From a virus: DNA of 28,534 nucleotides. The translations under genes and the position numbers were made by a program. The notes beneath the pieces are model-generated. The model was not told the origin of the DNA and did not search any database. It saw only the letters and a program-made list of their open reading frames with translations. Of the stretch, positions 4,604 through 27,338 are shown in pieces. The stretch covers positions 1-28,534 of the IMG/VR virus record IMGVR_UViG_3300044631_000738; one strand, 5' to 3'. The number at the start of each line of letters is the position of its first letter. Within the stretch, counting starts at the first letter, position 1.

Positions 4604-5128
4604 ATGACCTGTATTGTTGCTTTACGCCATGAAGATAAGATTTATATGGCTGGAGATCGTGGAGCATCAGATGATGGAGTTATTCTTTCACTTGAGTCAC
4701 CAAAGGTTTGGAAAGTTGGTCCGTATCTAATTGGTTATGCTGGATCAATGGACGGGGACAGAATTAGACACAACTTTAGACCATCAGCACCCAACATTAA
4801 AGACACAGATAAGTTTATGCATACAAAGTTTATCAAAGAACTTCGTGAATTTTATAACGAGTTCTGGATTGACACATCTAAAGAAGGCGAACTTAGTTTG
4901 ATTATTGGCATTCGTGGTGAAATCTACGAGCACAGTTCTGGAGATATGTCTTTATCTAAATACTCATTGCCATATGTTTCTATCGGTTCAGGATCAGAGT
5001 ATGCATACGGGGTTTTATATGCAACAGATAAGCAAAAAAATGCAAGGAATAGAGTAAATCAAGCGGTATCTGCAGCAATTAAATTTAACCCATCATGCAT
5101 GGGTCCAGTTGACATCATAAGCGCTTAG
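4604..5128 (+). CDS. Proteasome-beta/HslV-like Ntn hydrolase
   Basis: Predicted N-terminal-nucleophile peptidase of 174 residues, the size of HslV. After removal of Met the protein starts with Thr1 (TCIVALRHEDKIYMAGDRGA). Asp17 (AGD) and Lys33 (SPK) fall at exactly the catalytic positions of proteasome beta and HslV subunits, and the GSGSEYAYG motif matches the conserved GSGxxYA region. No propeptide is present. It has its own strong promoter and a good ribosome site (GGAGAGGG). No ATPase partner (HslU, Mpa/ARC) is seen in this window, so it may form a stand-alone ring, use a host ATPase, or interfere with the host proteasome. The last of these is speculation. Confidence 0.85.
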   Translation: MTCIVALRHEDKIYMAGDRGASDDGVILSLESPKVWKVGPYLIGYAGSMDGDRIRHNFRPSAPNIKDTDKFMHTKFIKELREFYNEFWIDTSKEGELSLIIGIRGEIYEHSSGDMSLSKYSLPYVSIGSGSEYAYGVLYATDKQKNARNRVNQAVSAAIKFNPSCMGPVDIISA

Positions 5129-5378: not shown

Positions 5379-6353
5379 ATGAAGAAAGTACTACTAGCAT
5401 TACTATCAATTACAATTGCATTCACAGCAATGCAGCCATCACAGGCACAAGATGAGCGAGTCCTTGCAATTATTGACTCCTCTATCAACTCAAACAATTT
5501 TCCATCAATCATTCACGAAGTTTGTTTTACAACTGTAAAGTCTAAGATTGTTGCTCAGAATATGTCATGCCCTAACGGAGAACTATTTATGGAGGGCAAG
5601 GGAGCAGCAGCATCACCTTGGCCAGCATCCCTAAACAATGCCACATATCATGGAGACTCTATGGTTAAGGCTGCACTCGCAAAGACTCCAAACATCAAGA
5701 TTGTATTTATTAGAGTCTACAATGTTTCTTCTCTTGGAAACTCATCAACTCCATTTAATGGATCAACAATCCTTAGTGCTATCGACTGGGTCAATAAGAA
5801 TGCATCAAAGTATAGCATTGATGCTGTGTCAATTAGTCAGTCTGGTATTAATACATCAACAAGATCACTACACATTGGCTGCACTGATCAATCAATCTTT
5901 AGTCCATTTGTAACTCAGGTTTCACAGTTAAATGCACAGAACATTCCTACTTTTGTTGCCACTGGCAATGATGGTCTAAAGACAATTGTTGGTTTCCCAG
6001 CATGTGTTACAGGAGTTATCGGTGTTGGATCATCAACCGATGTTCTGGATGCTGGAACTTCTGTAGGGGCAACGGCTACAAATAGAGGTCCAGGCCTTGA
6101 CATGGTTGCTCCTGGAACAGTTAGTATTACAAAGTACAATGGATCACAGACAACTGCATCTGGAACTTCTGTGTCAACTGCACTTGCAGCAGCATCTTAT
6201 GTAAACGGAAATACATTCAAGTCATTTACACAATACATAGATACTCTTCCAAAGAAAACAATTAAGTTTGTTGATTCTGTAGTTGTAAATAGCAACAAGA
6301 CAAGAACAACTGTTTGGGAACCGACAAGAGTAATCACCTCTAACTTGCCATAA
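5379..6353 (+). CDS. Secreted subtilisin-like serine protease (S8)
   Basis: A 324-residue protein behind AAGGAG. The signal peptide MKKVLLALLSITIAFTAMQP ends near SQA (residues 21-23). S8 motifs are in the right order: Asp33 in VLAIIDSS, His91 in YHGDSM, oxyanion Asn197 in ATGNDG and Ser264 in SGTSVSTA. The domain is compact and has no recognisable prodomain, since the Asp motif starts ten residues after the predicted cleavage site. It should be exported and could process surface or virion proteins, or act on host surface layers during lysis or adsorption. It is followed directly by a tRNA gene. Confidence 0.88.
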   Translation: MKKVLLALLSITIAFTAMQPSQAQDERVLAIIDSSINSNNFPSIIHEVCFTTVKSKIVAQNMSCPNGELFMEGKGAAASPWPASLNNATYHGDSMVKAALAKTPNIKIVFIRVYNVSSLGNSSTPFNGSTILSAIDWVNKNASKYSIDAVSISQSGINTSTRSLHIGCTDQSIFSPFVTQVSQLNAQNIPTFVATGNDGLKTIVGFPACVTGVIGVGSSTDVLDAGTSVGATATNRGPGLDMVAPGTVSITKYNGSQTTASGTSVSTALAAASYVNGNTFKSFTQYIDTLPKKTIKFVDSVVVNSNKTRTTVWEPTRVITSNLP

Positions 6354-10106: not shown

Positions 10107-11531
10107 GTGATAATTCTTGGAGTAAACGAAACATCTCATGATGCCTCAGTGTCATTGATTAAAGATGGCGAAATACTTTTTTCAGGGCATGCAGAAAGGT
10201 ATAGCAAACAAAAAAATGATTGGTATGTGAATGATAGTTTAATAAAAGATGCTTTGCAGTATGGTACACCAGATAGCATTGCCTACTATGAAAAGCCCTT
10301 TCTAAAGGCTTCCAGGCTGGCTTTAAGAGGTGGTTCTGGAGAGTGGAAGCCAAGGTTTGATATACCTGGTGTTCCAAGGAAGTCTTTTAGCCATCACTAT
10401 TCTCACGCAGCAGCAGGGTACTACACAAGTTCCTTTAATGATGCTGTCATAGTTGTGCTAGATGCTATTGGAGAATACAATACCTCAACAATTTGGGCTG
10501 GACAAGGAGACAACATAAGTCTTAAGTATAAGAAAAACTATCCTGTTAGTTTTGGACTATTTTATTCAGCATTTACACAACTAATAGGTCTTATGCCAAA
10601 CCAAGAAGAATATATTATGATGGGCATGGCAGCCTATGGAAACAAAGAACGGTATGCAAGTAAGGTTTCTAACTACTTCATTAGACACGATATGCAGAAG
10701 TATAATTTTCACAAGGGAATAATTGATTGGGATGAACCAATAACAGAAAAAGACAAATTTGATATAGCAGCAGCAGTTCAATATGTTTATGAGTTGAGGC
10801 TTGCAGAGTTTATGATGATGGCTAAAAAGATAACTGGAAAAACTAACCTTGTATTTATGGGTGGCTGTGCACTCAACTCTTCAGCCAACACATTGCTATG
10901 GAATATCTTTGATATGGTTTGGATTATGCCAAACCCAGGAGATGCTGGTAGTTCTTTAGGTGCAGCAGCAGCCCTATATGGAAAACATATTGATTGGAAG
11001 AGCCCCTACCTTGGATACGACCTTGGAGGAGAGTATCCAGTCCAGCAAATTGTGGACGGTATACTAAAGGATGGAATCGTAGCAGTAGCATCAGGAAGAG
11101 CAGAGTATGGTCCAAGAGCATTAGGAAATAGATCAATCCTTGCCGATCCAAGAGACCCCAACATTAAAGACAAAGTTAATAGAATTAAGCAGAGAGAACT
11201 CTTTAGACCATTTGCTCCAGTAGTTATGGAAGAGTGTGCATCTAAGTGGTTTGATATGGACTTTACAAGCCCATATATGCAGTATACGGTCAAGTGCCTT
11301 CAGCCTGAGAAGATACCTTCTGTGGTCCATGCAGATGGAACATCAAGAGTTCAGACTGTAAATAAAAATCAGCACCGTGGGCTCTGGAGAGCAATCAATA
11401 AATTTTATCTTGAAACTGGTGTGCCAGTCTTACTAAACACTAGTCTTAATATAAAAGGTCAACCACTTCTTAATGATGAAATTGATATTATTAAGTGGGA
11501 AAAGGAATACAATTTCAAGATCTGTAGGTAG
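10107..11531 (+). CDS. Carbamoyltransferase, NodU/CmcH family
   Basis: Predicted to transfer carbamoyl groups from carbamoyl phosphate to a hydroxyl on a sugar or similar acceptor, via a carbamoyl-AMP intermediate as known for the family. 474 residues, a little shorter than bacterial NodU. N-terminal GVNETSHDASVSLIKDG, SHHYSHAAAGYYTSSF, FMGGCALNSSAN, GDAGSSLGAA, and the YrdC-like C-terminal markers AEYGPRALGNRSILADPR and LFRPFAPVV with VLLNTSLN are all present. GTG 10107 is chosen with AAGGA seven bases upstream; an overlapping ATG at 10105 is out of frame. Last gene of the decoration cassette. Confidence 0.9.
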   Translation: MIILGVNETSHDASVSLIKDGEILFSGHAERYSKQKNDWYVNDSLIKDALQYGTPDSIAYYEKPFLKASRLALRGGSGEWKPRFDIPGVPRKSFSHHYSHAAAGYYTSSFNDAVIVVLDAIGEYNTSTIWAGQGDNISLKYKKNYPVSFGLFYSAFTQLIGLMPNQEEYIMMGMAAYGNKERYASKVSNYFIRHDMQKYNFHKGIIDWDEPITEKDKFDIAAAVQYVYELRLAEFMMMAKKITGKTNLVFMGGCALNSSANTLLWNIFDMVWIMPNPGDAGSSLGAAAALYGKHIDWKSPYLGYDLGGEYPVQQIVDGILKDGIVAVASGRAEYGPRALGNRSILADPRDPNIKDKVNRIKQRELFRPFAPVVMEECASKWFDMDFTSPYMQYTVKCLQPEKIPSVVHADGTSRVQTVNKNQHRGLWRAINKFYLETGVPVLLNTSLNIKGQPLLNDEIDIIKWEKEYNFKICR

Positions 11532-13421: not shown

Positions 13422-13679
13422 ATGAAGACTATGATTAAATCAGAGGATCAGGTAAAAGAGTGGGTCCTAAAGGCTACAGACAGATGTGATTCCTGTGCTG
13501 CAGAAGCATTGGTACAGATTACTGGGCTTAACGGAGACCTTATGTTTTGTGGTCATCACTATAACAAGATTATGAACAACCCTAAAAGTTATAAAAAAAT
13601 GATGTCATTTATGATTACCGTCATAGATGAAAGAGATAAGTTAATTGAAAATAAAGCAAAGGAAGAGCCACACGCATGA
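13422..13679 (+). CDS. DUF7455-like small zinc protein
   Basis: An 85-residue protein with DRCDSCAAEALVQITGLNGD and LMFCGHHYNKI: a C-x2-C pair and a C-x2-H pair, the pattern of actinobacterial and actinophage DUF7455 proteins. A helical tail (MITVIDERDKLIE) follows. First gene after a strong promoter; its end overlaps the APS-kinase fusion start by four bases (ATGA). At least three relatives occur in the window. Function unknown. Confidence 0.8.
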   Translation: MKTMIKSEDQVKEWVLKATDRCDSCAAEALVQITGLNGDLMFCGHHYNKIMNNPKSYKKMMSFMITVIDERDKLIENKAKEEPHA

Positions 13680-14437
13680 TTATTCAAATTATTGGACTGC
13701 CAGGATCTGGGAAAACAGAACTAGCCAAGGCCCTAAAAGAACGCATTAACGCTATTCATCTCAATGCAGATGAGGTTCGTGCAACAGTTAATTCAGACTT
13801 GGGGTTTGCACCAGAAGATAGACTAGAACAGTCTCGTCGCATGGGCGAGATGGCTCGTCTAATTTCCAAGCAAGGGGTTGCTCCAGTCATTGTTGACTTT
13901 GTTTGTCCAACAGACCTAACTCGTGTAGCATTTGGTAATCCAGACATTTTGGTATTCATGGACACCATTGCAGAGGGTCGCTTTGAAGACACTAATAAAA
14001 TGTTTGAACGACCAACAGATTTTGATGTATCTTTTATTAGTCACAACTTAGATGCAGAAGCAAAGGCATCTCACATCATTGATAAGTTTAGTCTTCATGA
14101 TTGGTCTGCACCTACAACTCTCATGCTGGGTAGGTATCAGCCTTGGCACGAAGGTCACCACGCCCTTTACAAAGAGGCTGGTAAGAGAACTGAGCAAGTG
14201 CTTCTTGGAGTACGTAATACCTACAACACAAGTGAGAAGGATCCACTTAAGTTTGATCAGGTAAAAGAATATATTGCCAAGGACGACTTTATGGATGGTG
14301 CATTAGTATTAAGACTACCCAACATTACCAATATCGTATATGGTCGTGATGTAGGATATAAAATTGAGCAAGTAGATTTGGGGGCAGACATTCATGCTAT
14401 ATCGGCTACGCAAAAGCGTAAAGAGATGGGTATCTAA
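13676..14437 (+). CDS. APS-kinase-like / HxGH nucleotidyltransferase fusion
   Basis: A 253-residue two-domain enzyme. Residues 1-140 match adenylylsulfate kinase (CysC): P-loop GLPGSGKT (7-14), LNADEVRATVNSDLGFAPED and DRLEQSRRMGEMARL. Residues 145-253 are a cytidylyltransferase-like domain with GRYQPWHEGH (His158, His161) and ISATQKRKEM, closest in style to NMN adenylyltransferases (NadM/NadR) and not to ATP sulfurylase, which has QxRNPxHxxH. The kinase-first order is opposite to NadR. Either it makes PAPS from sulfate (supporting the sulfotransferases) or it is an NAD-salvage or other nucleotide enzyme. Domain calls are firm; the reaction is not. Confidence 0.8.
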   Translation: MIIQIIGLPGSGKTELAKALKERINAIHLNADEVRATVNSDLGFAPEDRLEQSRRMGEMARLISKQGVAPVIVDFVCPTDLTRVAFGNPDILVFMDTIAEGRFEDTNKMFERPTDFDVSFISHNLDAEAKASHIIDKFSLHDWSAPTTLMLGRYQPWHEGHHALYKEAGKRTEQVLLGVRNTYNTSEKDPLKFDQVKEYIAKDDFMDGALVLRLPNITNIVYGRDVGYKIEQVDLGADIHAISATQKRKEMGI

Positions 14438-16687: not shown

Positions 16688-16969
16688 ATGAACAAGTATA
16701 AATGGAAAGATAATGCCATATGTTTAGATTATGACACAAACTTATTTTTTGATAAGTATGAAGAGGATGAACTACTTAGACCAGCAATAGATGCACTTTG
16801 CTCTGGATGCTCTGTTAGAAAAGAATGTTTTTCTGTTGGAATATCTGGCAAAGAATGGGGAGTTTGGGGTGGAGTATACTTAGAAAATGGAGAAGTCTCT
16901 AAGGAGTTTTCTAGCCACAAGAGTAAAACTGACTGGGGTAAAACCTGGCAATCGTTAACTATGGAGTGA
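16688..16969 (+). CDS. whiB: WhiB-family iron-sulfur transcription factor
   Basis: A 93-residue protein with the four cluster ligands Cys12, Cys38, Cys41 and Cys47 (LCSGCSVRKEC) and the WhiB turn GVWGG (about 57-61). WhiB proteins bind a 4Fe-4S cluster and contact the primary sigma factor; they occur only in actinobacteria and their phages. Phage versions are known to repress host WhiB function, for example in septation and superinfection exclusion. This gene is the strongest host marker in the window. Confidence 0.93.
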   Translation: MNKYKWKDNAICLDYDTNLFFDKYEEDELLRPAIDALCSGCSVRKECFSVGISGKEWGVWGGVYLENGEVSKEFSSHKSKTDWGKTWQSLTME

Positions 16970-18143: not shown

Positions 18144-18560
18144 ATGGTAACAAAATACGCTATGGATCTATTCAATGATCCTTTTTTTATTGGCTTCAAC
18201 AGAGAGTTGAGTCGCCTAAATACAGCACATAAAACAAACTCACAGTCATACCCTCCGTATGATCTTATCAAACTGGATGAAGATACATACAAGATTTCAC
18301 TGGCTGTCGCTGGGTTTTCAAAGAATGATATTGACGTTTCAGTAGATAACGGAACATTGATTATCAAGGGTGAGATTGTTGAAGTTACAGATGCAGAGGT
18401 AGTTCATAAGGGAATCGCAGGAAGAAAGTTCGTAAGATCTTTTGCACTGGGAGAGTATATGGAAGTAACATCTGCAGAACTTAAGGACGGTATGCTGCAT
18501 GTTAATGTGGTTCGTATTGTTCCTGAAGAAAAAAAGCCTAAATCTATTAAAATTAAGTAG
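18144..18560 (+). CDS. Small heat-shock protein Hsp20/IbpA
   Basis: A 138-residue alpha-crystallin chaperone: PPYDLIKLDEDTYKISLAVA, then FSKNDIDVSVDNGTLIIKGE, IAGRKFVRSFALGEYMEV, and an ending with a short basic tail. A-G-F and the GTLIIKG strand are typical. Such proteins hold unfolding proteins and form oligomers; T4-like cyanophages also carry them. The gene has its own very strong promoter, so it may be made in bulk during virion assembly. Confidence 0.92.
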   Translation: MVTKYAMDLFNDPFFIGFNRELSRLNTAHKTNSQSYPPYDLIKLDEDTYKISLAVAGFSKNDIDVSVDNGTLIIKGEIVEVTDAEVVHKGIAGRKFVRSFALGEYMEVTSAELKDGMLHVNVVRIVPEEKKPKSIKIK

Positions 18561-18762: not shown

Positions 18763-19758
18763 ATGAAGATTAAACTCATCATAGCAACACTAATCTCTAG
18801 TGTCTTGTTTATACCTACCGCACAAGCAGCAGATCTAACTGGCTCAGGCTCGTCATTTGCTTCTAATTTTATAGAGAAGTGCAGAGTGGCATATGCTTCA
18901 TCTGGCAATAACATTTCTTATACCCCAAACGGATCAAGTTCTGGAAAGAATCAACTTGCTCTAGGTTTGACTGATTTTGCTATTAGTGATGTTCCATATG
19001 GATCATCAGAAGTAAAACCAAAAACTGATTTTGTCTATGTACCAATTGTTGCTGGTCCTATTGCTATTAGTTATAAATTAGATGGCTATAAAGGTCAAAT
19101 AAAACTAACCAAAGAAAATCTAGCAAAGATTTTTGCTGGTCAAATTAAAATGTGGAATGATCCACTTCTAAAGAAGAACAACCCAAGTAAACTTCCAGCA
19201 AAGAAAATAACTGTTATTTATAGAGCAGATGGATCTGGAACTTCTGAGGTTTTTACAACTTACCTTAATACAGTTGCAAAAAATATATGGAATAAGCCTG
19301 CAAACAAATCTTTTTCTACTGCATTCCCAGGTAACATTAATGAAAAAATAGGATCGTTTGTTTCTGCATCTGGATCTCAAGGAGTAGCAATGCTACAATC
19401 AAAGACAGATGGGTCTATTGCTTACAATGAAGTTTCATTTACTAAACCATTTGGTGTTTCTTATGTTGAAAACGGATCAGGAAGATTTGTTAAGCCAACA
19501 GTAAATGCAGCATCTAGATTCTTATCAGACTTTACATCTAACCCAGATGGAACAATTACTCCAAACTATAATAATCCAAATAAGATGGCGTATAACATTT
19601 CTACATTTAGTTATGGAATAGCACCCGTTGGGTCAAGCGAAGTTGCCAAATTCTTCACCTTTGCCATTACAAAATGTAAGGCTACAGAGTTTGGGTATTC
19701 TCCTATAAGTGGGAACGCTCTTAAACTTGCTAAATCTCAAATAGCAAAAATTAAGTAG
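18763..19758 (+). CDS. pstS: Phosphate-binding protein PstS
   Basis: A 331-residue periplasmic-type phosphate receptor. Signal peptide 1-22 (ends AQA, then ADLTGSGSSFA). Phosphate-contact motifs are present: GSGSSFA, NGSSSGKNQ, DFAISD, RADGSGTSEVFTTYL and SASGSQGVAML. There is no lipobox cysteine, unlike the lipoprotein PstS of most Gram-positive hosts, so it is likely released or held otherwise. Phage pstS is known from marine cyanophages, where the host Pho system controls it; the repeats upstream suggest the same logic here. Ends in LAKSQIAKIK, then TAG immediately followed by a -10 box. Confidence 0.93.
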   Translation: MKIKLIIATLISSVLFIPTAQAADLTGSGSSFASNFIEKCRVAYASSGNNISYTPNGSSSGKNQLALGLTDFAISDVPYGSSEVKPKTDFVYVPIVAGPIAISYKLDGYKGQIKLTKENLAKIFAGQIKMWNDPLLKKNNPSKLPAKKITVIYRADGSGTSEVFTTYLNTVAKNIWNKPANKSFSTAFPGNINEKIGSFVSASGSQGVAMLQSKTDGSIAYNEVSFTKPFGVSYVENGSGRFVKPTVNAASRFLSDFTSNPDGTITPNYNNPNKMAYNISTFSYGIAPVGSSEVAKFFTFAITKCKATEFGYSPISGNALKLAKSQIAKIK

Positions 19759-21270: not shown

Positions 21271-21666
21271 CTATTTAGTCAATTTGTGTAAATAAAATGG
21301 TACCAGTCTATATAGATAGTCTGCTAATCCAGGATAAAAATTGTTAAAAAATTGTGCATAACTGTAGTCTGTTTTACAAAGACAAGATAATCTCAAAATA
21401 TATTCTTTTGTAATTGGAAAAAACCATTTATGAAAATGCTCAACAAGATCTTCAAATCCAGACTCAGCGAGTTTACTCTTAATTGGGATGTTATACATTA
21501 CTAACTCACCAAGCCTATTAGTTAAAGATGTTGCCTCTTCAGACATAGACTTCCAGTCTTCTTTAGAGTATGTCGATATTTTTTGTTTTGCAGCAATAAC
21601 TAAATGATTGTTTGGATCTGAAAGCATCCACTCTCTCCACAATTCATTACATGTGATTTTTTCCAT
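21271..21666 (-). CDS. TipAS-like antibiotic-recognition domain protein
   Basis: A 131-residue all-helical protein. STYSKEDWKSMSEEATSLTN, FEDLVEHFHKWFFPITKEYI, and FFNNFYPGLADYLYRLV match the TipAS domain order (W-x-x-x-x-x-E-A, then the H-x-x-W/F-F helix, then PGLA-x-[FY]L). TipAS domains bind thiopeptides and other cyclic antibiotics, normally fused to a MerR-type DNA-binding domain that is absent here. A stand-alone phage copy could sequester an antibiotic or modulate a host TipA-like regulator. Leaderless promoter overlaps the tRNA-Arg 3' end. Confidence 0.65.
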   Translation of the reverse strand: MEKITCNELWREWMLSDPNNHLVIAAKQKISTYSKEDWKSMSEEATSLTNRLGELVMYNIPIKSKLAESGFEDLVEHFHKWFFPITKEYILRLSCLCKTDYSYAQFFNNFYPGLADYLYRLVPFYLHKLTK

Positions 21667-24315: not shown

Positions 24316-24344
24316 AGTATAACAGAGAACTACCTCTAAGTCAA
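24316..24344 (-). promoter_or_regulatory. Leaderless promoter of the membrane-protein operon
   Basis: Minus strand: TTGACT (24344-24339), 17-base spacer ending in TGT, TATACT (24321-24316), then six bases to ATG 24309. Same design as the promoter at 22451-22479. Confidence 0.78.
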
Positions 24345-24842
24345 TTTGATTGATTTACTCAGCAATTCTAGATAATGTGGATAACATTTTTCGATATCCT
24401 GTTTACTAAAATATTCTTCTTCATATTCTTTAACTGTTTTACTAGACACAAGATACTCATAGTCCTTGTCGTCTTTCATCATAGGATATTCCATAGGATT
24501 TTTTTTAAAGCCTAGAGTATCACACACACTTTTTGTTATTTCTTCTGGAAAAGAAACTAAATCTTCGTAATCAATAACTAAATTAGCATCCTTGTTTAAA
24601 AAAGTATATGTATCAATATAATATTTTATGTAGTCGTTGTCTAGATATGTATCTGGAAAATAATGTTTCTTCATTGCCATTGTGGATTTTATACTATCAA
24701 AAGGATTTCGTGCAATAGTTATAATAAAACTATTATCAAAAACTTGATAATGGCTAGAGTCTATCTTTTGAGATGAGTATGTTAGAATAAGGTGTTGAAG
24801 ATAATGTGTCCCAGACCTTGGGTATGTAATTATTCTATTCAT
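24336..24842 (-). CDS. Short sulfotransferase-like protein
   Basis: A 168-residue protein with MNRIITYPRSGTHYLQHLIL, the 5'-phosphosulfate-binding loop (TYPRSGTHYL), then FIITIARNPFDSIKSTM, the 3'-phosphate-binding strand (R-N-P-x-x-x-x-x-S), and LVIDYEDLVSFPEE. Length is well below the 250-300 residues of typical sulfotransferases, but both PAPS motifs are present. Its C-terminal half aligns with the partial gene at the right edge (VIDYxxLVxFP; LSSK/VSSK...EY). Acceptor unknown. Confidence 0.78.
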   Translation of the reverse strand: MNRIITYPRSGTHYLQHLILTYSSQKIDSSHYQVFDNSFIITIARNPFDSIKSTMAMKKHYFPDTYLDNDYIKYYIDTYTFLNKDANLVIDYEDLVSFPEEITKSVCDTLGFKKNPMEYPMMKDDKDYEYLVSSKTVKEYEEEYFSKQDIEKCYPHYLELLSKSIKLT

Positions 24843-24997: not shown

Positions 24998-26392
24998 TTA
25001 AACAAAATCAAACCATATAGGCATAATATATCTTGACCCATTTACAGGCATTATGTTATACCAGTAGTGGACATTTCCAGGAAACATAACTAGGTCACCA
25101 GCCTTCGGCTTAATAGATACATCTTGATGCATAAAGGAAATCCTTCCTCCTTCGTAATCATCATTTAGGTATATCCACCCAGCCATATGGTTAGAATCTT
25201 TAGACCCCATGTCATCTATAGGAATTGTAAAACTGCTGCTGTGTCTCCACTCAGCAAAACGAGAATGTCTTGGCTTTACTTTTACACCGTATTCTTTTTC
25301 TAAAAGAGAATGAACTCCAGGAATATATTTTTCTGGAAGATCAAGAGAGTCATAGTATATTAATGATATGGCACCAGATTGAAGCATCCTTACATTACTT
25401 GTTTCTGTTTCTTTAATCATTTTTACAATGTCAGAACATTCTTCTTTGCTAAGATAATTATTAAATACCTTTATATTGTTAGCGCCTCTACCAATTGCTG
25501 CAAAATTTTTAGCAGTTAAGTTTGCATCAGTTGTGGTAGATTCTTTACCATTAAACTCTTTAACTAACTTAAGAAGTTGGCTAATATCTTCTTGATCGGT
25601 ATGAATCATAAAATCATATACTCCAAACTTATCAGAAAGTTCTTTTATTTGTTTCTTTACTTCTTCCATCGTTCCCTTTACATGATGATGCTGCCTTCTT
25701 TCTGGTGCATTTTTATCATACTTAACATTCTTTTCATCATCTAGATTATTAATAATAAGTGGATCAATGATTACTATTGGCTTAGGGCCTTGAATTTTTT
25801 TAAACTGATCCTTATACAATAAGTTATCGTCAACATAAATATATTCACAATGCTTGTTTGCTATACCAATTGTAGTATCTGAAGAACCAACAACTGCCAT
25901 ATGTGTTTTGTGAGTATGTGTTTGCATCAAATCCATGAATTTGTCCATCCAAACTGCAGATATTGCAACTCTTTTATCTAGAGTGTCAATTAGGCTTGGG
26001 TCATGCATGTAATGATCTACTACTATCTTTTCAGACTTGTCATTACCTTCATCGCCCCATCTTCCAGCAACTAGGTTTACACCAATTCTTCCAGGTGCAA
26101 ACTGATTTAGTGTGTCAACTATTTTAGCAGCATAGTCTGGACTTGTCCCATATGCAGGCAACGCAATAGTCATAATTAATTGATTTGTTTTCTGTAGGGC
26201 TTCTTGTATAACTAAAGAAAAATCTATACCACCTGGACCATATGGAAGAAGAACAGATTTTACATTTGCATTATCTAGTTCTTGTGCCATACCGAGAATT
26301 CCCTTAAGGTCTAGATGCTCAGTGCTATCATTTACTTGCCAGTGTCTTCTCCACATCCAGTGAAAAGTTATTGGTCTATTTGTGTTATCCAT
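24998..26392 (-). CDS. Luciferase-like monooxygenase / degenerate 2OG oxygenase fusion
   Basis: A 464-residue two-domain protein. Residues 1-290 match luciferase-like FMN enzymes of the SsuD type: ITFHWMWRRHW, AQELDNANVKSVLLPYGPGG, TIALPAYGTSPDYAAK, FAPGRIGVNLVAGRWGDEG. Residues 305-464 match the prolyl-hydroxylase-like oxygenase encoded by the next gene upstream (GWIYLNDDYEGGRISF; KAGDLVMFPGNVHYW; GSRYIMPIWF). The paralogue's first iron ligand His is Pro391 here (IPIDD versus LHVDD) and its distal His is Tyr445 (WYNI versus AHEV), while Asp393 and Arg454 remain. Iron binding is therefore doubtful, and the domain may act as a binding module. Confidence 0.75.
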   Translation of the reverse strand: MDNTNRPITFHWMWRRHWQVNDSTEHLDLKGILGMAQELDNANVKSVLLPYGPGGIDFSLVIQEALQKTNQLIMTIALPAYGTSPDYAAKIVDTLNQFAPGRIGVNLVAGRWGDEGNDKSEKIVVDHYMHDPSLIDTLDKRVAISAVWMDKFMDLMQTHTHKTHMAVVGSSDTTIGIANKHCEYIYVDDNLLYKDQFKKIQGPKPIVIIDPLIINNLDDEKNVKYDKNAPERRQHHHVKGTMEEVKKQIKELSDKFGVYDFMIHTDQEDISQLLKLVKEFNGKESTTTDANLTAKNFAAIGRGANNIKVFNNYLSKEECSDIVKMIKETETSNVRMLQSGAISLIYYDSLDLPEKYIPGVHSLLEKEYGVKVKPRHSRFAEWRHSSSFTIPIDDMGSKDSNHMAGWIYLNDDYEGGRISFMHQDVSIKPKAGDLVMFPGNVHYWYNIMPVNGSRYIMPIWFDFV

Positions 26393-26651
26393 TTTTTGCT
26401 ACTCTTCCTTTTGTTTTGAACCAAGAACCTATCTTAGCCTTGGCAACCTTGCTTCTTAAGATTTCACCAAATGTTTCATGAGATATCTCTGATCCAAGAT
26501 ATTCTTGACCAGTTTCAAGATCAATTAGTTTCCACTTTCCAGGTGCCTTTGTGTGTAGTATAAGGTCAATTGGGTGATCGTAATCATTTACTTCAGATCC
26601 ATCTAGAAGTTTTCTTTTTTTATTGTGAGGTTCTGAAGCGTTTTCTATCAT
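26385..26651 (-). CDS. Uncharacterised 88-residue protein
   Basis: Basic, with DYDHPIDLILHTKAPGKWKL, DLETGQEYLGSE and a KVAKAKIGSWFKTKGRV tail. A compact beta/alpha fold is likely. Leaderless start (TATAAT six bases before ATG 26651); its end overlaps the fusion gene's ATG by eight bases. Genes of this kind lie beside oxygenases in other phages, but I do not recognise a function. Confidence 0.7.
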   Translation of the reverse strand: MIENASEPHNKKRKLLDGSEVNDYDHPIDLILHTKAPGKWKLIDLETGQEYLGSEISHETFGEILRSKVAKAKIGSWFKTKGRVAKNG

Positions 26652-26665: not shown

Positions 26666-27274
26666 CTACGGTATTGTAAACCAGATAGGTAGGGTATATC
26701 TTGTTCCAGACAAAATTTCAAATACTTCATGTGCATAGTGCATATTTCCAGGGAACATGATTAGGTCACCCCTTTTAGGTTTAAAGACAAACCCATGTGT
26801 AGCAAAACCCAACTCTCCGCCCTCATATTTATCATTTAAATAAACAAGTGTTGGCAGATGATTGTCTGTTACATAGCCAAGATCATCAACATGAAGGCTT
26901 AGTTTGCTGCCGACATCCCATCTTGCAATATTTAGCCTATCGCTTTTTGGCTCAACATTTTCAATGTCATACGCCTTTTTTATTTCATCAGATACTCTGC
27001 CGATTACATTATCTTTGTCAGGAATTCCTTCATAGTTGTGAATCCACGAAGTAGGATTGCCATCGTTATCTTTTTGAGAAACAAAACTTACCATTCTTCT
27101 TTCATCTATGTGTGATAAAATATATCTAATCTCTTTATCAGAAAGAAAGTTTGGGATAATTTTTATGTTATCTGGAGAGTTTCCCACCTTTTCAAAAAAC
27201 TCCATGTAGGATGGTTTTCTTTCGATTTCGGCTGGGTTATGTCCAACAGGCTGATTATTAACTATATATGGCAT
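26666..27274 (-). CDS. 2OG-Fe(II) oxygenase, prolyl 4-hydroxylase-like
   Basis: A 202-residue protein with an intact site: His128 and Asp130 (LHVDD), TLVYLNDKYEGGELGF, KRGDLIMFPGNMHY, His182 (AHEV) and Arg192 (GTRYTLPIWF). Start: an in-frame ATG at 27292 exists, but TATAAT (27286-27281) lies between it and the ATG at 27274 with six bases to spare, so 27274 is taken as the leaderless start. Its domain is the closest relative of the C-terminal part of the downstream fusion, pointing to duplication and then decay in the fusion copy. Confidence 0.88.
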   Translation of the reverse strand: MPYIVNNQPVGHNPAEIERKPSYMEFFEKVGNSPDNIKIIPNFLSDKEIRYILSHIDERRMVSFVSQKDNDGNPTSWIHNYEGIPDKDNVIGRVSDEIKKAYDIENVEPKSDRLNIARWDVGSKLSLHVDDLGYVTDNHLPTLVYLNDKYEGGELGFATHGFVFKPKRGDLIMFPGNMHYAHEVFEILSGTRYTLPIWFTIP

Positions 27275-27280
27275 ATAACT

Positions 27281-27286
27281 ATTATA
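27281..27286 (-). promoter_or_regulatory. -10 box, leaderless, fixes the oxygenase start
   Basis: Minus strand TATAAT followed by AGTTAT and ATG 27274. It lies within the longer reading frame from 27292 and so argues against that start. Confidence 0.6.
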
Positions 27287-27338
27287 CACCATAGGTAAAT
27301 CTTTAAAGTTCGGCGCAAAATAGAAGTTATAAACCTTC

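Follow-up and report, generated by a model that had tools for sequence, protein, structure and literature searches.

The 28.5-kb virus record analyzed here (the window) encodes a luciferase-like monooxygenase (LLM) joined to a P4H-type 2OG oxygenase domain that has lost its iron ligands. Our preferred explanation, to which we give a probability of roughly 0.7 as a whole, is that this is an actinobacteriophage flavin monooxygenase barrel with the iron-dead P4H-type domain as its obligate partner, which would bind the substrate or a carboxylate or act as a lid. Sequence analysis established that the two domains are associated, that the iron triad is broken, that the P4H-type domain is under purifying selection, and that its fold and its carboxylate-binding Tyr and Arg are retained.

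The fusion ORF (24998..26392, minus strand) encodes 464 aa, and its ATG is preceded by a AAAAGGAAGAG motif. Profile searches, structure prediction, and fold comparison resolved it into an LLM TIM barrel (aa 1–283; 25544..26392, minus strand) and, joined to it by a linker, a DSBH domain (aa 305–464; 24998..25480, minus strand), referred to below as the pseudo-2OG domain. The C-terminal part passed the cutoff of the Pfam model 2OG-FeII_Oxy_3 (PF13640; 31 bits against a cutoff of 27), which was matched by 33 of 36 relatives (E ≤ 0.01). When modelled alone, the pseudo-2OG domain gave a DSBH fold with a pLDDT of 89 and a pTM of 0.87, and its best fold match was the viral prolyl hydroxylase vCPH (Z 15.6, 158 residues, 3.1 Å); the comparison with PHD2 gave a Z of ~14. 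The full-length model (pLDDT 78, pTM 0.56) leaves the mutual orientation of the domains too uncertain to read. An earlier, preliminary description of this DNA had proposed an LLM fused to an oxygenase domain at this locus, which was borne out by the profile matches and the fold comparison.

The pseudo-2OG domain carries Pro391, Asp393, and Tyr445 at the iron-ligand positions, together with Arg454, exactly as had been described. The histidines cited for the intact paralogue, His128 and His182, are present there as an HVD motif and a His, but they were numbered from Met7 and become 134 and 188 when counted from the first ATG. The loss of both iron-ligand histidines from the fusion was confirmed, and it exceeds chance, as seen in an alignment of 84 rows (83 window-type fusion ORFs and the window, some of them copies of one sequence). 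Position 391, the proximal His site, was never His (Pro in 65 rows, Ser in 9, Arg in 6, and Ala in 4), and position 445, the distal site, was Tyr in 80 rows, His in three, and a gap in one truncated row. All three rows with His445 carried Asp393Asn. Type A sequences have a one-residue deletion between Tyr445 and Arg454, giving a spacing of 9 compared with 10 in the paralogue, so that Trp444 is as possible as Tyr445 at the distal-ligand site. Across all LLM-linked domains the three ligand positions vary (Pro, Ser, Arg, Ala, Gln, or Leu; Asp or Asn; Tyr or His), and Tyr408 and Arg454 were kept in 77 out of 77. In OGFOD1, the equivalent residues Tyr169 and Arg230 bind the C5 carboxylate of the cosubstrate (PMC4396695).

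Relatives of the fusion are encoded in at least 129 IMG/VR stretches. Each of the 83 distinct LLM proteins in the fetched loci had its partner, of which 72 were fused, two were fused but cut by contig ends, and nine were split; no LLM copy without a partner was found among these 83. In the loci of the nine split proteins, the dead 2OG gene has its own ATG a few bases from, or overlapping, the LLM stop, and in most of them an AAAGGAG-type motif lies inside the end of the LLM gene. Sequencing frameshifts were rejected as the origin of the split loci, since the junctions are clean stop/start arrangements, mostly with this motif, and recur in several distinct sequences. A sister branch (the L100-L114 type) has the same LLM, with 58–62% identity overall, and breaks the triad otherwise, by replacing Asp with Asn or the proximal His with Gln or Leu, the distal His being retained.

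The fetched loci contained 209 distinct 2OG-type sequences, and the HxD...H iron triad was broken in all 77 LLM-linked domains and intact (H-D-H) in all 132 other nearby ones; the sequences are related and these counts are not independent events, so changes within the dead group are the safer measure. In a tree of 2OG domains from which the three ligand columns had been left out, all dead domains grouped together off one branch (SH-aLRT 89, below the starred level), nested among live ones. The proximal-His column changed at least eight times inside this group and not at all in the 82 live rows. As to whether the Pro/Tyr changes are conserved among relatives, the loss of the triad is therefore common to the whole family, while the substitutions differ by branch.

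An 88-aa protein (26385..26651, minus strand) is encoded immediately upstream of the fusion, the 3' end of its gene overlapping the fusion start by 8 nt, and directly upstream of it lies the gene for an intact P4H-type 2OG oxygenase with the HxD...H motif and Arg (26666..27292, minus strand). In all 82 loci with enough sequence, the 88-aa gene was directly upstream of the LLM and overlapped its start, most commonly by 8 nt, and a live 2OG gene was upstream in 75 out of 75. The fusion likely shares a pathway with the 88-aa protein and the live 2OG enzyme encoded upstream. The 88-aa protein is similar to the last ~50 aa (KRKLxDGxEV...KWxLxDxETG) of a nucleotidyltransferase/kinase-like protein (554 aa) of Klebsiella Marfavirus phages, and is apparently a small module that occurs alone or fused. 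The L115-L120 contigs have runs of different 2OG oxygenase genes, some with Lys replacing Arg at the cosubstrate-carboxylate position, and two large actinophage genomes (G006 and G007) each have at least six 2OG-type genes in separate regions.

This gene order bears on a second reading, in which an ancestral 2OG homodimer has turned into a pair of one live and one dead member. The pseudo-2OG domain would then dock to, or heterodimerize with, the live 2OG oxygenase encoded upstream and keep the iron enzyme bound to the flavin enzyme, so that their oxidations follow one another. The constant presence of the live gene in all 75 loci agrees with such a role, as does the tree, which places the upstream live 2OG proteins of the L102/L107-type branch as sisters to the dead ones. 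However, the live 2OG gene of type B loci is located 1.6–2.3 kb upstream, with space for one more gene between, and we consider docking a possible but not a favored function.

Directly downstream of the fusion, a sulfotransferase-fold protein (24336..24842, minus strand) is a frequent but not universal neighbor. The genome that carries sulfotransferase-fold genes also encodes an APS-kinase-like/cytidylyltransferase-like protein (13676-14437, plus strand), and these genes could constitute a phage sulfation pathway. A NolO-like carbamoyltransferase (10107-11531, plus strand) was identified by a strong phrog_1601 match. Taken as genomic context, the sulfotransferases, the carbamoyltransferase, and the APS-kinase-like protein hint at the modification of small molecules or glycans. 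Elsewhere in the window, an HslV/proteasome-like peptidase (4604-5128, plus strand) is shortly followed by a subtilase-like protein (5379-6353, plus strand), and a protein that by eye is small-heat-shock-like (18144-18560, plus strand) lies beside a PstS-like phosphate-binding protein (18763-19758, plus strand). A 131-aa protein with a TipAS antibiotic-recognition domain (21271-21666, minus strand) apparently has no DNA-binding domain.

The window encodes a WhiB-like regulator (16688..16969, plus strand), a host marker for actinobacteriophages that was found in eight of nine records. A 119-kb relative had portal and terminase proteins 47% and 56% identical, respectively, to those of its closest phages, which are Streptomyces phages of ~130 kb. 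WhiB and this distant kinship suggest that the hosts are probably actinobacteria. The habitat is likely aquatic. Two pattern scans of 84,980 species genomes found no LLM homologues in cellular genomes at the sensitivity used, and cultured phage records yielded none beyond a weak SsuD-like match (E 3e-3). We found no earlier description of the LLM/pseudo-2OG fusion in the open-licence literature.

The top sequence-model matches of the LLM part were NCBIfam alkanesulfonate monooxygenase models (E ~2e-7). Its score against Pfam Bac_luciferase was 16.9 bits, below the curated cutoff of 27.9, which marks it as a divergent member whose assignment is carried by the fold match. In the fold comparison, CmoJ, SfnG, LadA, and SsuD were matched with Z ~21 (250–262 residues, 3.1–3.6 Å). 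MsuD uses a Ser-Ser loop together with a His/Tyr pair to hold the flavin phosphate, and its active site is closed by a lid insertion and the C-terminus of the neighboring subunit (PMC8234197). N106, V108, G110, and G169-S170-S171 of the phage LLM, invariant in 80 rows, correspond to residues of the FMN site and O2 pocket of MsuD (PMC8234197). H127 was present in 79 of these rows, and no clear equivalent of MsuD's H-x-x-R-Y motif was seen. Given that the positions aligning with Thr49, Arg77, and Trp195 of MsuD are altered, FMN binding by the LLM domain is likely but not certain. The barrel is presumably active as a flavin enzyme.

The phage LLM resembles SsuD and MsuD, which are group C FMN-dependent alkanesulfonate monooxygenases, in its TIM barrel, its N-x-V and GSS flavin-site residues, and its best sequence-model matches. 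It differs from them in being ~100 aa shorter, without the lid insertion and the RGGA loop, and in adding the C-terminal pseudo-2OG domain. An identity as an alkanesulfonate monooxygenase was rejected by a motif test, in which the sulfonate-binding motif (W195/R225/R296 and the RGGA loop) was not found in the phage LLM; W195 of MsuD aligns with Asp189, and the LLM scored ~30 of the 518 bits demanded by TIGR03565. The FMN reductase families PF01613 and PF03358 were absent from six phage records, all of them possibly incomplete, so that the host must supply the reduced flavin, unless the cofactor is a different one.

Many actinobacteria make F420, and F420 enzymes tied with the FMN enzymes in the fold comparison (Z ~21). 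With the hosts being probably actinobacteria, the LLM might thus be an oxidoreductase that depends on F420 instead of a monooxygenase that depends on FMN, its pseudo-2OG partner being the same. We consider this unlikely, because FMN alkanesulfonate monooxygenases come first among the sequence models and the NxV and GSS residues match those of MsuD.

The preliminary description had also considered that an alternative alignment might supply other iron ligands. No in-register distal His was found, but invariant residues nearby left room for a relocated site, at which the C-terminal domain would still be an enzyme, its metal bound for example by His384, His402, or His442 together with Asp393 or Asp394. 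His384 and His402 were found in all 68 type A domains and Asp394 in all 77 LLM-linked domains. Type B, however, has Lys for His384 and Asn for His402. In the model, the strand preceding the lost proximal ligand ends at His384, seven residues ahead of that ligand; His402 is frequent among live 2OG enzymes too and is thus no replacement ligand; and His442 is not invariant. A relocated metal site is therefore very unlikely. His442 and His446 were also rejected as substitutes for the distal ligand, being variable and lying 12 and 8 residues before the Arg, compared with 10 in live enzymes.

Median dN/dS values, which are approximate (median dS 0.7–1.4), were 0.13 and 0.11 for the pseudo-2OG domains of type A and type B, respectively, and 0.10 for the LLM, all below the 0.19 of the live 2OG enzyme encoded upstream. 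Together with the kept Tyr408 and Arg454, these low values indicate that the iron ligands were freed from a constraint that still acts on the remainder of the domain. That the C-terminal domain is a decaying, non-functional leftover of a fusion, as its lost iron ligands and variable ligand columns might suggest, is hardly credible given dN/dS values of 0.11–0.13 across open frames of full length, the existence of over 70 distinct proteins that carry it fused, and the survival of the domain as a separate gene in split loci. The narrower idea that the copy in the window alone is decaying fails as well, since the loss is family-wide, with different substitutions per branch and purifying selection on the domain. 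The earlier view, in which a flavin-enzyme domain is combined with a dead 2OG domain, is in turn well supported by the family-wide loss and the selection.

In the partner model that we favor, the barrel, an SsuD/MsuD-like flavin monooxygenase of group C, would carry out the oxygenation using reduced flavin from the host. The P4H-type domain, kin to the neighboring iron/2OG oxygenases, would have lost iron catalysis and become the obligate partner of the barrel. It may bind a ligand, either the substrate or a carboxylate such as 2OG, and/or close the flavin active site, and could replace the closing role in a barrel that has neither the long lid insertion of SsuD/MsuD nor their sulfonate-binding loop. 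Such a partner would work equally well whether fused to the barrel or translated separately as a subunit. The preliminary description had suggested reuse as a substrate-binding module, which is compatible with the kept Tyr408 and Arg454, although the data do not set it apart from a lid, scaffold, or sensor role. Reuse is most likely the best reading of the pseudo-2OG domain, whether as a putative substrate binder or as a lid. More speculatively, the domain might bind 2OG or another carboxylate through Tyr408 and Arg454, without iron, as the lid of a minimal flavin barrel; flavin oxygenation would then require either the ligand of the 2OG site or a docked live 2OG enzyme, in the service of a phage-specific two-step modification. 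We regard this version as rather doubtful.

The pseudo-2OG domains share with P4H-type 2OG oxygenases (vCPH, PHD2, and the phage families phrog_61 and phrog_2297) the DSBH fold and the Tyr/Arg pair of the site for the cosubstrate C5 carboxylate, but all LLM-linked members have a broken HxD...H iron triad. A precedent that works alike is found in the two-domain oxygenases OGFOD1 and Tpa1p, whose C-terminal DSBH is metal-free and has been proposed to function in substrate or partner recognition (PMC4396695). The catalytic domain of OGFOD1/Tpa1p is a 2OG oxygenase, whereas that of the phage system is a flavin TIM barrel. Bacterial luciferase LuxAB is also a flavin TIM barrel dependent on a non-catalytic partner, LuxB, which is a paralogue of LuxA. 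The phage system is similar in combining a flavin barrel with a probably non-catalytic partner, but its partner has an unrelated fold. To our knowledge, pseudoenzymes are well known for kinases and proteases and sparsely documented for iron oxygenases.

The flavin monooxygenase/pseudo-2OG system is real and conserved, recurs in many viral contigs, and represents a new architecture of a known theme, that of pseudoenzyme partners. Automatic annotation would label the pseudo-domain a '2OG-Fe(II) oxygenase', a label that its sequence contradicts. The natural split and fused forms make partner dependence directly testable. In these phages, a pseudoenzyme arose when a domain linked to a flavin enzyme with an unrelated fold lost its iron site.
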